The translations under genes were made by a program, and so were the position numbers. A stretch of 27,298 nucleotides of DNA from a virus, in IMG/VR virus record IMGVR_UViG_3300042484_002054, positions 1 to 27,298 of that record. One strand, given 5' to 3'. The notes beneath the pieces are model-generated. The model did no database searches and was not told the DNA's origin. It worked only from the letters and a program-made list of their open reading frames with translations. This document shows, one piece after another, positions 14,829 through 21,796 of the stretch (the stretch's first letter is position 1; the number at the start of each line of letters is the position of its first letter).

Positions 14829-15049
14829 TGATTTGGAGATTAATATACACAAATACAGAGGTTATTGATTTGTTAGAAACAAATGGAATAACATCAACAC
14901 CACATAAAATTTTTGAGGCAATTACTCAAGATGAATGTTTCGATAAGATCGATGAATTAAAATTAACTTATTACTACCCTTTGAATGAAAATGAAATACT
15001 ATTATTTAGTGGGGGTACAAGAACATTAATAAATAAAGAACATATTTGA
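14828..15049 (+). CDS. 73-aa small protein following the LRR-like adhesin
   Basis: The 73-residue product begins MIWRLIYTNTEVIDLLE. An upstream in-frame TTG (14807) exists, but ATG 14828, overlapping the adhesin stop (TAATG), is the better start, and the stop overlaps the next ATG (TGATG). The product is mixed alpha/beta with an acidic-polar middle (DECFDKIDELK) and no known motif. The location directly after a receptor-binding gene parallels the 72-aa gene at 7286, suggesting a fibre assembly or tip protein (inference). Confidence 0.72.
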   Translation: MIWRLIYTNTEVIDLLETNGITSTPHKIFEAITQDECFDKIDELKLTYYYPLNENEILLFSGGTRTLINKEHI

Positions 15050-16638
15050 TGGGACAATTAAGTGGAAATAGTTGTAATATTATAACAATTTTACCTTTAG
15101 GTTTAGATTGTGATAGTATAAATGCGTCAACACCGCAATCAACCAATGGTTTAATTGCGTTATTTGTAACAGGAGGAACGTCTCCGTATAATGTTACTTG
15201 GAACAACGGTTCACAAGGGACATTATTAACTAATTTAAGTCCAGGTAATTATACTGCAACTGTTGTTGATTATTATGGTGATTTTACTGCAACAACAACA
15301 TGTACGGTTGGTTATGATAGTTTTTACATAGAAACATTTGAGGATTGTAAAACACCGGGTAATTTTATTTATTATTTAGCAGATTTAGTTAACCCATTAA
15401 GTGGTGGGTCAGTTTATCAGTTAACAACACAAATAGGTTGTTGGACTAACAGTGGAACAACATTATATACAGGACAAACTTATATTGGTAATTTCCCGAT
15501 AGTGTCTGATGGGCCGTTTACAGGTTGTACCGAATGCCTACCACCACCCACACCTACACCCGTATATCCAAATGATTTGTGTTTACAACTTACTCAAGGG
15601 ACAAATATAACACAATTTAATTTTAGTTCAGGATCAACAATAAATGGGTACCCGTCATGGACAAGTAATACACAAACAATGTATTATAATACAGGATTAA
15701 CACAATGGAACGTTAGTGGGTGGACATATCCAGGAGGATTGTATTATACGACACCAACTATACCACCAACAGGTAATTGGGTATTGACAGGTTCTTTATC
15801 TTACGGATCAACCGTTTATGTTAGTTCAGGTATTTGTCAAACACCACCATTAACAATGACAGTTAATAAGACAGATCCAACTTGTTCTCGAACAAGTAAC
15901 GGTTCTATAACAATAACCCCTAATGGCGGGTTATTACCATATTTATATTCTATAGATTCTGTAAATTACCAAGTATCAAATACATTTATTGGTTTATCCC
16001 CTGGCACTTACACTGTTTATGTTAAAGACGCTAATTTAACAGTTATCAGTCAAACGGTTGTTTTAACACCACAACAATTATTTCAAAATTACAATGTAAG
16101 TTTATCTTTAACTCCTGGTACAAATATAACGGTAGGTAACTCAACAACAAAAACTTCTAATTGGTCGATAAGTGTTAGTCCATATCCTTTACCTGTAGGT
16201 ACCGTTATTAATATGAATTTATTATTTAATATTAATACAACTGCCTATACGATTACTTCACCTACGATTAGTTATAGTAATAATATCACAACAAACCAAA
16301 CAGGTGGGTTTACGATATCATCACCAACAACAGGACCGACAGTTGGATCAACATCTTTTAATCCGGCATGTGAAGGAGGTAATATAAATTTAAGTTCTTA
16401 CACAACCTCTTATACTGTACAATTATCAGGTAGTGGGGGTATATCAGGAACTATCGTACAATATATAGACACCCCTTGTGTTGTAAAAGATCGTTGTAAT
16501 TTATTTGGGATGATAAAAGATAGTGTTAATATACAAAACATAACAATAACACCTACACTATGTAAATCGGTTAACTCTTCTGTTAATCCTCAAGAAGTGA
16601 CATTAGTGAAAACCGGATTAATATGTAAACCGAATTAA
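15049..16638 (+). CDS. Virion protein with SprB repeats
   Basis: The 529-residue product (ATG 15049; an in-frame TTG three bases earlier lies in the upstream stop region) carries two SprB-type repeats (PF13573 pattern). The first, about residues 19-87, has VTGGTSPYNVTWNNGSQG and NLSPGNYTATVVD; the second, about 268-340, has SNGSITITPNGGLLPYLYSI and LSPGTYTVYVKDAN. Between them lie a domain ending FTGCTECLPPPTPTP, as in the 8963 protein, and a Trp/Tyr-rich domain (NTGLTQWNVSGW). SprB repeats are typical of the large gliding adhesin and other secreted proteins of Flavobacterium, so this virion protein uses a host-lineage adhesin fold. A role in surface attachment is inferred. Confidence 0.83.
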   Translation: MGQLSGNSCNIITILPLGLDCDSINASTPQSTNGLIALFVTGGTSPYNVTWNNGSQGTLLTNLSPGNYTATVVDYYGDFTATTTCTVGYDSFYIETFEDCKTPGNFIYYLADLVNPLSGGSVYQLTTQIGCWTNSGTTLYTGQTYIGNFPIVSDGPFTGCTECLPPPTPTPVYPNDLCLQLTQGTNITQFNFSSGSTINGYPSWTSNTQTMYYNTGLTQWNVSGWTYPGGLYYTTPTIPPTGNWVLTGSLSYGSTVYVSSGICQTPPLTMTVNKTDPTCSRTSNGSITITPNGGLLPYLYSIDSVNYQVSNTFIGLSPGTYTVYVKDANLTVISQTVVLTPQQLFQNYNVSLSLTPGTNITVGNSTTKTSNWSISVSPYPLPVGTVINMNLLFNINTTAYTITSPTISYSNNITTNQTGGFTISSPTTGPTVGSTSFNPACEGGNINLSSYTTSYTVQLSGSGGISGTIVQYIDTPCVVKDRCNLFGMIKDSVNIQNITITPTLCKSVNSSVNPQEVTLVKTGLICKPN

Positions 16639-18916: not shown

Positions 18917-19522
18917 ATGTCAGACAAATCAGATTTTAAAAATACCCCTAAAGTGTTGGGGTTGGATATCTCTACCAAAACAATAGGGTGGAGTTTATTT
19001 GATATTAAAACAAAAGAACTTTTAGAGTTAACCCACTTCTCACCCACTATAAAACCAAAAGTAGATGATAAGATACACGAGTTACTATTAAAAGTAGACT
19101 TATTTGAAGAAAAACTACAAGGATATAAAAACTTAGGGATAGCTAAAGTCATCATTGAAGAACCACTATTAAATTCTAATAATGCGTGGACAGTGGGAAC
19201 ATTATTAAGATATAATTCAATGATTACCAAATCTATATATGATATTTTAGGTATCGTACCTAATTACATATCAACATATAATTCAAGAAAATATGCTTGG
19301 CCTGATTTTGTACAAGAAAACGATAAAGGAAAACACGTATTATTTGGGGGACTACCAAAAGATATTGATAAGAAAGAATTAATTTGGAAAAAAGTATCAG
19401 ACAAAGAACCACAAATACAATGGTTATATACTAAAAATAATACCCTTAAAAAAGAGTGTTATGATATGGCAGATTCTTACACTTGTGTTCTTGGTTATAT
19501 GAATCAAGAAAAAATTTGGTAA
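18917..19522 (+). CDS. RuvC-like Holliday junction resolvase
   Basis: The 201-residue product has the RNase H-fold resolvase layout: first strand LGLDISTKTIGWSLFD with catalytic Asp17, second acidic site VIIEEPLL (Glu81/82), and a C-terminal helix ECYDMADSYTCVLGY with Asp183/Asp186. It should cleave four-way or branched DNA during replication-recombination or before packaging. Start ATG 18917 follows the structural gene by 4 bases. The last 15 codons plus stop are duplicated at 20136-20184, where the same peptide is encoded with one change (Asn196 to Ser). RuvC-fold proteins of other function (YqgF type) are less likely given D-x-x-D spacing and context. Confidence 0.85.
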   Translation: MSDKSDFKNTPKVLGLDISTKTIGWSLFDIKTKELLELTHFSPTIKPKVDDKIHELLLKVDLFEEKLQGYKNLGIAKVIIEEPLLNSNNAWTVGTLLRYNSMITKSIYDILGIVPNYISTYNSRKYAWPDFVQENDKGKHVLFGGLPKDIDKKELIWKKVSDKEPQIQWLYTKNNTLKKECYDMADSYTCVLGYMNQEKIW

Positions 19523-19523
19523 A
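19475..19523 (+). repeat. 49-bp direct repeat, copy A (3' end of ruvC-like gene)
   Basis: Matches 20136-20184 at 47 of 49 bases. It spans the last 15 codons, the stop codon and one further base. The two differences fall in one codon (AAT to AGC), so copy B still reads SYTCVLGYMSQEKIW-stop. Confidence 0.95.
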
Positions 19524-19549
19524 TTAGTGGAAAAACTGATTTTTTTTCT
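19524..19549 (+). terminator. Weak hairpin plus T-tract after the ruvC-like gene
   Basis: TTAGT (19524-19528) can pair with ACTGA (19535-19539, one G-T pair) around a six-base loop, followed by T8. The stem is weak, and copy B of the ruvC tail lacks it while keeping poly-T. Confidence 0.3.
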
Positions 19550-19558
19550 TTTATAATG

Positions 19559-19570
19559 TATTTATAAATA
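19559..19570 (+). promoter_or_regulatory. Late-promoter-like box TATTTATAAATA
   Basis: Contains TATAAATA (19563-19570), the T4-type late -10 sequence, 7 bases before the ATG at 19578. A similar box, also containing TATAAATA, precedes the second cassette gene (20229-20236). Confidence 0.4.
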
Positions 19571-19577
19571 AAAACCT

Positions 19578-20054
19578 ATGAAAAGAATTATAAAATTAAC
19601 AGAATCAGATTTAACAAGAATTGTTAGAAGAATAATTAAAGAGACTGAAGAAAATGATATTTCTGCCGACGTTACCTTACTTGATAATAAACTTAAAAAT
19701 AAGACCGTAAACCTTTACACCGACTTTAATGAGAAAGAAAATAATTTACTTAAACAAGTAACTATTCAGCGTGTGGGATTGGATAGTACAGAAGAAACAC
19801 CAAGACTTTTTATGAGAACATCTAATTCAATGGATTTAAAATTTCAGTGTGGTGATAACTTTTTCACTAGTACTAAATATTCCGGTACTTATTACAAAGA
19901 TCAAAAGAAAAAAATTTACAATAAAGAATTAATGGGGGTAATAACTTCCGGTAATTTTTGCAAAACAAAAAGAGATGGTAAGGGGGATTTTAAAACAGTT
20001 CCTAATGCCGATTTTGCTGATAATAAAGGGGGTATTGATAATCGTATATCGTAA
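19578..20054 (+). CDS. Cassette gene 1: 158-aa protein with charged helical leader
   Basis: The first ~23 residues (IIKLTESDLTRIVRRIIKE) form a charged amphipathic helix, a leader type I recognise from unrelated proteins of other Bacteroidetes phages. It ends in I-K-E, matching the (I/L)-x-E rule of T4 prohead protease sites. The remainder is a lysine-rich, probably beta-rich domain (VNLYTDFNEKEN, RLFMRTSNSMDLKFQCGDNF, two further Cys-free strands, GNFCKTKRDGKGDF) with no recognised family. The gene is monocistronic: an AT box before it and a strong terminator 25 bases after it. It lies between the two copies of the ruvC tail. A capsid-delivered or internal protein is a hypothesis only. Confidence 0.75.
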   Translation: MKRIIKLTESDLTRIVRRIIKETEENDISADVTLLDNKLKNKTVNLYTDFNEKENNLLKQVTIQRVGLDSTEETPRLFMRTSNSMDLKFQCGDNFFTSTKYSGTYYKDQKKKIYNKELMGVITSGNFCKTKRDGKGDFKTVPNADFADNKGGIDNRIS

Positions 20055-20078
20055 ACACAATTTTTAAAATATTATTTA

Positions 20079-20106
20079 AACCCACCCCATAAAGGTGGGT
20101 TTTTTA
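20079..20106 (+). terminator. Intrinsic terminator after cassette gene 1
   Basis: Perfect 8-bp stem AACCCACC (20079-20086) / GGTGGGTT (20094-20101), 7-base loop, followed by a T-rich tail. The following promoter-like site begins within 10 bases. Confidence 0.88.
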
Positions 20107-20140
20107 TTATTTGACAAAACCACTCCATACACTTATCTTA
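20107..20140 (+). promoter_or_regulatory. Promoter copy 1 (TTGACA-N17-TATCTT)
   Basis: TTGACA at 20111-20116 and TATCTT at 20134-20139, spaced by 17 bases. The 34-base block matches 20837-20870 at 32 positions. Here the block runs directly into copy B of the ruvC tail, so the promoter would drive cassette gene 2 through a leader of about 110 bases. Confidence 0.7.
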
Positions 20141-20184
20141 CACTTGTGTTCTTGGTTATATGAGCCAAGAAAAAATTTGGTAAA
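20136..20184 (+). repeat. 49-bp direct repeat, copy B (displaced ruvC tail)
   Basis: 47/49 identical to 19475-19523 and still readable as the RuvC C-terminus plus stop, but with no upstream ruvC body. The first five bases TCTTA are shared with the promoter -10 block, marking the recombination joint. Confidence 0.95.
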
Positions 20185-20220
20185 AATTCTTTTTTTTTTT
20201 GATTTTTTTAAAATGATATA

Positions 20221-20236
20221 TATTTATATATAAATA
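20221..20236 (+). promoter_or_regulatory. Late-promoter-like box TATTTATATATAAATA
   Basis: Ends in TATAAATA (20229-20236), 18 bases before the ATG at 20255. It parallels the box before cassette gene 1. Confidence 0.4.
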
Positions 20237-20254
20237 AAAAAAAATAATTAAATT

Positions 20255-20728
20255 ATGAAAAATATTATATCTGAAATTACACAAGAAGAAAAAAATAGAA
20301 TTCTTGAAATGCATAGAAAATCAACAAATAGATTATATTTAAGTGAAGAAGAAACAACACCTTCAGGAACTGGTGGACCTTTAGTTGGAATAATGGTTAG
20401 TAGAGCTGATGGTGGAACATATAATTGGGGTGATACTGTAGAGTTTAAATTTCCTGGATTAAAAAACGCAGGACAAGCACCTATAGTAGTTAATCAATTT
20501 ATGGGTAGTAGTGATAATATGACATCAAGTTTAAAATTACCAATGACGGTACCTGCTGGTGGAAATACCGGACCTTTTAGTGTTATGGTTCGTTTAGAAC
20601 TAGGAGGAACTACAACAAGACCCGATGTTAATGATCTTATTAATTATGATGTTCCAGCTTATTTAGTTACTGATGGTAAAAAACCTAAATATCAAATTTA
20701 CTGTAGAGGTGAATTTAGAGTTAGATAA
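20255..20728 (+). CDS. Cassette gene 2: 157-aa protein with charged helical leader and beta-sandwich-like domain
   Basis: The leader (ISEITQEEKNRILEMHRKS) is another short amphipathic helix of a type I recognise from Bacteroidetes-phage proteins, and it contains I-L-E, again an (I/L)-x-E site. From residue ~45 the chain looks like one Ig-like beta-sandwich (TYNWGDTVEFKFPGLKNAGQ, APIVVNQFMG, MTVPAGGNTGPFSVMVRLE) with a pattern loosely like DUF1573/ASPM-type domains, then KYQIYCRGEFRVR. The function is unknown. It has the same flanks as cassette gene 1 but no obvious body similarity to it. A terminator follows 23 bases after the stop. Confidence 0.75.
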   Translation: MKNIISEITQEEKNRILEMHRKSTNRLYLSEEETTPSGTGGPLVGIMVSRADGGTYNWGDTVEFKFPGLKNAGQAPIVVNQFMGSSDNMTSSLKLPMTVPAGGNTGPFSVMVRLELGGTTTRPDVNDLINYDVPAYLVTDGKKPKYQIYCRGEFRVR

Positions 20729-20751
20729 AAAATAATTAATAAAACGTATAT

Positions 20752-20784
20752 AACCCATCTCTCAAACAGGTGGGTTTTTTGTTT
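20752..20784 (+). terminator. Intrinsic terminator after cassette gene 2
   Basis: 9-bp stem AACCCATCT (20752-20760) / AGGTGGGTT (20768-20776, one G-T pair) with a 7-base loop and a TTTTTTGTTT tail. It shares AGGTGGGTTTTTT with the terminator of cassette 1. Confidence 0.85.
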
Positions 20785-20836
20785 ATCGTTAAATCAAACA
20801 ATAAAATAAAATATCGTTTAATTAACCGATATTATT

Positions 20837-20870
20837 TTATTTGACAAAACCACCCCATACACCTATCTTA
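20837..20870 (+). promoter_or_regulatory. Promoter copy 2 (TTGACA-N17-TATCTT) for primase
   Basis: TTGACA 20841-20846 and TATCTT 20864-20869 with a 17-base spacer. The expected start site (~20876) coincides with the primase ATG, so the message may be leaderless. Probably drives the replication gene series. Confidence 0.72.
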
Positions 20871-20875
20871 TACGT

Positions 20876-21796
20876 ATGGATGATGAATCACTATTAGTAG
20901 ATTTAATACTGACGATGTTTGGGGAACCAAAAAGCGTAAACGAATATTCTGGACAAATTTCAGTTGATTGTCCTGTGTGCTCATACGATATTAAAGGACT
21001 ATCAAAAACAGATGGTAAAGGAAACCTTGAAATTAATTACCAAAATCACGTTTATAAGTGTTGGGCATGCGCAGAAACTCACGAAACCTATGGACACTTG
21101 GGTAAATTAATTGACAAGTATGGTTCAAAAAAAGATAAGAAAACTTATAAACTAATTCGTCCTGATAAGTTTGAAAAGAAAGAAAAGATTTTTAAAGAAT
21201 TAGAACTACCTAAAGAATATAAGAAGTTTGATGAAATACACCCCCTACATATACCAAGAAAAGAGGCATTTAATTACCTTAAAAAACGAGGGATAACACA
21301 AGAAATTATAGACAAGTACAAAATTGGACTTTGTATTGAAGGGGAATATGCGGGTAGAATAATAGTTCCGTCGTTTAATAAAAAGGGAGAATTAAACTTT
21401 TTTGTTTCAAGATCTTGGAACCCAAAATCAAAACTTAAATATAAAAACCCTGAAGCGGCAAAGGACTTTCTAATCTTTAATGAAAGTCTAATAGATTTTA
21501 AAAAAGACATCTATATTGTTGAGGGAGTTTTTGACTCCTTCTTTTTAGAAAACTCAATCGCGTTACTTGGTAAATATATCAATGACAATATGTGGGAAAA
21601 ACTATATACCAAAGCAAAAAAAGACATCATTATCTGTTTAGATGGGGATGCTTATGATGATGCAAAAAAACTATACGATAAACTAAACGGAGGTGCCCTC
21701 TATAATCGAGTAAAACTCGTAAAACTACCAAAGGACAAGGATGTTTGTGATTTAAGAGGTGATATTACTCCATATTATATAGAAGAAAAAGAATGA
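20876..21796 (+). CDS. DNA primase (zinc-binding plus TOPRIM), DnaG/gp61-like
   Basis: The 306-residue product has an N-terminal zinc-binding module with Cys32/Cys35 (DCPVC) and Cys62/Cys65 (KCWAC), a primase-core signature around 138-152 (RGITQEIIDKYKIGL), and a TOPRIM domain with IVEGVFDSFF (Glu216) and CLDGDAYDD (Asp256, Asp258). It should synthesise RNA primers at the fork. It is short for DnaG and has no helicase domain, like T4 gp61. ATG 20876 sits at the predicted transcript start; Met14 (20915) is a fallback start that would keep both Cys pairs. The stop overlaps the next ATG (ATGA). Confidence 0.88.
   Translation: MDDESLLVDLILTMFGEPKSVNEYSGQISVDCPVCSYDIKGLSKTDGKGNLEINYQNHVYKCWACAETHETYGHLGKLIDKYGSKKDKKTYKLIRPDKFEKKEKIFKELELPKEYKKFDEIHPLHIPRKEAFNYLKKRGITQEIIDKYKIGLCIEGEYAGRIIVPSFNKKGELNFFVSRSWNPKSKLKYKNPEAAKDFLIFNESLIDFKKDIYIVEGVFDSFFLENSIALLGKYINDNMWEKLYTKAKKDIIICLDGDAYDDAKKLYDKLNGGALYNRVKLVKLPKDKDVCDLRGDITPYYIEEKE

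Follow-up and report, generated by a model that had tools for sequence, protein, structure and literature searches.

The window analysed here is the entire IMG/VR record IMGVR_UViG_3300042484_002054 (27,298 bases). Between its genes for a RuvC-like Holliday junction resolvase and a DnaG-type primase lie two units, each with one tagged cargo gene set within flanks that are largely shared, and we refer to this interval as the slot (Table 1). The end of ruvC and the block that carries the primase promoter recur as direct repeats of 49 bp (47 identical) and 34 bp (32 identical), the latter with 0 matches expected in shuffles, and the bodies of the two cargos are unrelated. The repeated flanks around different genes that were noted in a preliminary description of this DNA are thus confirmed, as is the exact joint, where the first promoter block meets the second ruvC tail. 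That description also gave both units the same order; this is true of the shared flanks, but a hairpin ahead of the promoter block is present only in unit 2. Because the second ruvC tail lies outside the RuvC frame, we regard it as a scar rather than a gene. On folding, both terminators consist of a 9-bp stem followed by a T run, and both promoter blocks have the form TTGACA-N17-TATCTT.

Table 1. Features of the ruvC-primase slot in the window.
Feature	Position	Strand	Remarks
RuvC-like Holliday junction resolvase, left border of the slot	18917..19522	+	phrog_159, E 5e-6; neighbour conserved in all relatives
ruvC tail, genuine in-frame copy	19475..19523	+	
TATTTATA late-promoter-like motif, unit 1	19559..19566	+	
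Cargo gene 1 (c1), 158 aa, body without detectable relatives	19578..20054	+	
Tag A of cargo 1 (MKRIIKLTESDLTRIVRRIIKE), predicted cleavage after E22	19578..19643	+	[ILV]xE in 35/35 tag-A cargos; conservation collapses beyond
Intrinsic terminator, unit 1	20078..20108	+	with promoter 1, 97% to L033 over 63 bp
Promoter block 1 (TTGACA-N17-TATCTT), displaced primase promoter, L033 type	20107..20140	+	
TCTTA joint, 5-bp microhomology of promoter -10 and ruvC	20136..20140	+	
ruvC tail, second copy, out-of-frame scar	20136..20184	+	47/49
TATTTATA late-promoter-like motif, unit 2	20221..20228	+	
Cargo gene 2 (c2), 157 aa, predicted Ig-like beta sandwich	20255..20728	+	relatives in L067, L042, L051, L020, L055, L069
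Tag B of cargo 2 (MKNIISEITQEEKNRILEMHRKSTNRLYLSE), predicted helix and disordered linker	20255..20347	+	
Intrinsic terminator, unit 2	20752..20781	+	
ATATCG..CGATAT inverted repeat (hairpin) ahead of promoter 2	20811..20832	+	also in L067; as ATCG..CGAT in empty slot L021
Promoter block 2 (TTGACA-N17-TATCTT), current primase promoter	20837..20870	+	
DnaG-type primase, right border of the slot	20876..21796	+	phrog_47, E 3e-38

The TATAAATA box to which attention had been drawn earlier, considered here as a T4 late box, was rejected for lack of enrichment in the window (10 found vs 7.65 expected). The informative motif that takes its place is TATTTAT(A), which stands on the coding strand once in each unit, at 19559 and 20221. 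For the analysis of motifs, head genes and leaders we used G021, a relative of 291,867 bp (about 292 kb; L083-L097). There, TATTTAT shows the strongest sense bias of all 7-mers upstream of genes, being found in sense in 75/156 intergenic upstream regions against 18-23 in antisense. It precedes 12 of 14 tagged genes in G021 and also the genes for the tail sheath and the head protease and a scaffold-like gene. In the window, the motif lies ahead of tail-fibre-like genes and of both cargos, and the TTGAC promoter ahead of primase only. We infer that TATTTATA may act as a late-type promoter motif and TTGACA-N17-TATCTT as an early-type promoter.

About 60 non-redundant relatives were recruited by RuvC and primase searches, and the 43 distinct ruvC-primase intervals with both borders visible served as the base of a slot census. 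These intervals hold between zero and three cargo genes (0 in 11, 1 in 25, 2 in 6 and 3 in 1). The preliminary description had suggested that the interval is a cargo slot and that a comparison across relatives could reveal differing numbers of units; both ideas hold, since cargo number varies and cargo differs between relatives while flanks match. The cargo bodies fall into 22 groups at E 1e-4. The terminator and the TATTTA motif are each present in 32/32 filled slots vs 1/11 empty ones, so that what is gained or lost is a cassette made up of the late-type motif, the tagged gene or genes and the terminator. Such cassettes have their own promoter and terminator and are inserted between genes that are adjacent in relatives. 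The TTGAC-TATxTT primase promoter persists in 10/11 empty slots, where it lies almost directly 3' of the ruvC stop, and in 28/32 filled slots; the other 4/32 are precisely those with an endonuclease gene. That 11 distinct slots of relatives carry no cargo is no more than suggestive of dispensability for phage growth. All three outgroup contigs with a readable interval (L028, L030 and L031) have an empty slot, so the ancestral slot may have been empty and not, as had been proposed earlier, occupied by one tagged gene. Two distant relatives, L024 (5583-7388) and L029 (2201-4171), have a ruvC-primase gap of 1.8-2.0 kb without tagged sense genes.

Dedicated scans for relatives of c1 and c2 returned none that passed; relatives of c2 turned up inside slots already in our set. 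Two leads on c1 were rejected: when scored for distant membership of the NFYL cargo family, it stayed within the shuffled range, and an hhalign match stemmed from the tag. The structure model of c2 is an Ig-like sandwich whose N-terminal 37 residues are poorly ordered, as expected of a removable leader, and a fold search with it found nothing beyond generic Ig-like sandwiches. Among the cargos scanned, there was no match to the internal head protein families of PHROG and Pfam.

The main clue to the slot is the tag, not the flanks. Two unrelated leaders predominate among slot cargos: tag A, MKRIIRLTESDLTRIVRRVIxE (35 distinct), and tag B, MKNILSEITxxEKNRILEMHxKxTxxxYLxE (11). The putative cleavage motif [ILV]xE occupies residues 20-22 of every tag A, at the point where strong conservation stops, and the leader end of tag B in 11/11, so that a predicted site closes the tags of 46/46 slot cargos. 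The cargos of L052 and L054 bear different tags on one body (93% over 144 aa), and fused cargos retain an inner tag end with [IL]xE (FINE/Q in L057 and VLRE/Q in L010, the slash marking the tag end). At least 48 genes in G021 carry leaders, of about six types, and 47 have hydrophobic-x-E in the leader region, a loose pattern. Other leaders seen in G021 are MKIIITESQYxxLxE, MNLQENIRRIQxMMG..E, M(R/K)xLIRKVLKE and MxxxLLEEIxRFKxM, and many of its leader-bearing genes are clustered at 208-275 kb. Models of tags A and B found nothing in the cultured phages immuto, Colly_1 and Mel-JY01 and gave one weak match in a 484-kb uncultured phage.

The window is a 27-kb fragment without head genes, and the head genes (protease, capsid) were located in relatives. 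G021 encodes a head maturation protease (phrog_207, E 8e-43), a T4-like major head protein (phrog_138, E 4e-67) and a portal (phrog_213); a search with the Pfam protease model PF03420 gave no match, and its controls likewise gave none. In T4, gp23 is processed after an LxE-type site. The capsid protein here has HLINE/A at the expected cleavage place, a predicted site that is conserved in five records. The first 10 residues of T4 IPIII suffice for packaging and are removed by gp21 (PMC9026906). We infer that the tags are probably head-targeting and that the cargo is probably packaged and injected. The tags would be leaders that target the capsid and are then removed, the T4-like head protease cutting after [ILV]xE, and the tagged proteins would be packed in the head and then injected. 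Variable cargo delivered in this way would probably counter variable host defences.

The tags could instead be some other localization or interaction signal, such as one for membrane, nucleoid or ribosome binding, in which case the slot would be an ordinary accessory locus. Tag A is indeed a basic amphipathic stretch, and the tags resemble no described sequence, LTESDL being found in no paper by a text search of the literature. We nevertheless hold such a signal to be unlikely, though worth keeping in mind, as the unrelated tags have only the final [ILV]xE in common, with conservation stopping there, and are interchangeable on one body. The same motif also occurs at the predicted maturation site of the capsid protein, in a phage with a T4-like head protease.

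Judging from DNA comparisons, slots of different phages recombine at ruvC tails, terminator/promoter blocks and tag-body boundaries as well as within cargo genes. That the slot exchanges genes by recombination had been suspected before and is evident. In L012, a second ruvC tail of 150 bp follows three cargos and is 92% identical to L046 but 84% to the ruvC of L012 itself, which ranks 48th of 67. Between L054 and L052, the tag-body boundary marks a step in DNA identity from 84% to 94%. L057 is a chimera, its front 94% identical to L069 and its back 96% to L055. Cargos 1 and 2 of L020 are separated by an inner terminator and a primase-type promoter that has decayed, and a leader is repeated there. 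Most multi-cargo slots have no ruvC-tail scar. At 3303-3360 of L050, ruvC has lost 24 codons from its 3' end and passes directly into a cargo leader, the deletion counterpart of the ruvC-tail duplication in the window.

The two units of the window have different closest relatives. The terminator and promoter of unit 1 are best matched by the one-cargo slot of L033, and the terminator, hairpin and promoter of unit 2 by L067 (80% over 133 bp), with part of the unit 2 spacer also matching the empty slot L021. L067 holds a member of c2's cargo family with the same tag type; the donor of unit 2 itself is absent from the relatives sampled, since L067 is only 80% identical across the spacer and 56% for the protein, and the MSQEKIW ruvC allele was found in no relative. 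The primase of the window belongs to the L033-L036 type, and the ruvC closest to that of the window is found in L003. Because the unit 1 spacer matches L033 and the cargo family, tag and hairpin of unit 2 match L067, we favour two joined slot types over a simple tandem duplication. The simplest account of these matches would be a join of the slots of two phages at TCTTA, rather than a duplication within one genome. Events of this type find support in the independent cases L012, L020, L050 and L057. A one-gene, L033-like slot (ruvC, c1, terminator, promoter) would have been joined to an L067-like unit (ruvC tail, c2, terminator, hairpin, promoter) from a relative, via TCTTA, a 5-bp microhomology that the promoter -10 box shares with the ruvC tail. 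An origin in a related phage, surmised at the outset for the second cargo, is most likely correct for the second unit.

The preliminary description had favoured an unequal crossover at TCTTA that doubled the slot. Taken as an event within one genome, with one cargo later replaced or diverged, this is consistent with the clean joint and with flanks that repeat at 94-96% identity, and the two ruvC tails (47/49) are too alike to separate import from local duplication by themselves. However, cargo, tag, terminator loop and hairpin all differ between the units, which correspond to two slot types found singly in different relatives. The closest relative of each spacer lies elsewhere (L033; L067), and spacers, tags and cargo point to different closest relatives rather than to one parent. 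In the independent case of L012, moreover, the first ruvC tail did not give rise to the second. We therefore consider doubling within one genome quite improbable and prefer the join of two phages' slots.

A gene for an HNH/endonuclease VII-like protein (phrog_1035, E 6e-26) lies between cargo and primase in L003 (6226-6747), L010, L020 and L080. It could be imagined that a homing endonuclease moves the cargo, cutting empty or different slots so that repair copies the cargo along, and the gene does occur exactly where the primase promoter has been replaced. Yet it is missing from the window and from 28/32 filled slots, and when phages are compared its DNA is no better conserved than that of the neighbouring primase, which makes us strongly doubt such a role. 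Recent spread of the endonuclease between phages was likewise rejected, because endonuclease and primase are equally alike, within a single continuous alignment at 79-85%. Read by eye, the end of the endonuclease gene appears to supply a replacement promoter for primase, TTGAT..TATxxT; in all four slots the stop codon region (TTTTGAT) is seemingly the -35 of that promoter.

That the composite is an assembly chimera of two co-occurring strains in the metagenome would fit its being a single contig, with no second contig bearing the joint found by an exact scan of IMG/VR. We hold this to be very improbable: the joint shares 5 bp only, too short for a graph mis-join, and other samples yielded the independent composites L012 and L020. 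An exact IMG/VR scan with the promoter block also found none.

We consider it likely that these observations belong together, the ruvC-primase interval being a cassette hotspot, the window a join of two phages' slots, and the cargo capsid-targeted and probably injected. A wider proposal is that these phages load head cargo in a modular way. Unrelated tags, at least two and probably about six of them, would be interchangeable capsid tickets for at least 48 proteins per genome, and slots at late/early boundaries would trade tagged effectors via cleavage-site recombination. For this extension the case for and the case against seem to us evenly balanced.

Repoila et al. (1994) reportedly suggested that repeated promoter-bearing flanks mediate shuffling at the internal-protein (IP) loci of T-even phages, and the slot similarly has repeated non-coding flanks and a promoter able to mediate shuffling (the terminator/promoter blocks and ruvC tails). 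The T-even IP loci are polymorphic, with variable genes whose sole common part is an N-terminal leader that targets the capsid and is cleaved off by the prohead protease (PMC3012670, PMC12373910). Once injected, T4 Ip1-3 inhibit distinct type IV restriction enzymes (PMC12373910, PMC3012670). Slot bodies likewise vary in number and identity at one site (0-3 cargos in the 43 distinct slots), all 46 slot cargos have a leader ending in a predicted head-protease site, and a T4-like head maturation protease is encoded in the slot relative G021. The slot differs in its longer tags, with at least two interchangeable types per slot and about six per genome, in its promoter motif (TATTTATA), its site between ruvC and primase and its predicted Bacteroidetes hosts, and in that its cargos have no known relatives or targets. 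Our best reading is that the slot, known here from sequence alone, would work like the T-even IP loci. We do not file it as a homologous member, because no IP family match was obtained and packaging is itself a prediction.

Morons, autonomous units of promoter, gene and terminator that sit between conserved phage genes, are known mainly from prophages and are expressed in lysogens. The slot cassette resembles them in bringing its own promoter motif and terminator between genes that are adjacent in empty relatives, and differs in that its carriers are large T4-like phages, its motif is of the late-gene kind and its genes bear a probable head-targeting tag. In the giant phages SPN3US and phiKZ, many head proteins have propeptides that are cut after a short motif ending in E (PMC7411985, PMC10052503). 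The slot leaders likewise end in a predicted E-terminated cleavage motif; unlike those phages, for which we found no such description, the slot clade has an exchange hotspot with swappable leaders.

If this interpretation is true, the tag would be a signature for picking injected effector candidates, most of them without database relatives, in widespread uncultured phages, and the slot would be a place to seek genes that counter the immunity of Bacteroidetes. The arms race around T4 internal proteins would extend to another phage lineage and host phylum. It would also become testable whether unrelated leaders serve one packaging route and are swapped by cleavage-site recombination.

The clade of G021 very probably corresponds to the bS21-encoding Bacteroidetes phages of Chen et al. 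2022 (PMC9723584), because the bS21 gene of G021 (156097-156255) sits on the strand opposite to the head genes, between head protease and portal. That paper covers bS21 and core structural genes; the passages of it that were searched were not found to mention the slot or the tags. Elsewhere in the window, at 15046-16638, a predicted protein has SprB repeats (PF13573), which are familiar from surface adhesins of Flavobacteria. In Flavobacterium phage immuto (MW353176.1; L103, 477-2537), four short-leader genes with the leaders MKKSELVKLIKEEL, MKKSQLREIIRKEL, MISIYNILKE and MENTFDLKKFLVE lie directly upstream of primase, here part of a primase-exonuclease pair, which hints that cargo beside primase is older than the slot clade.
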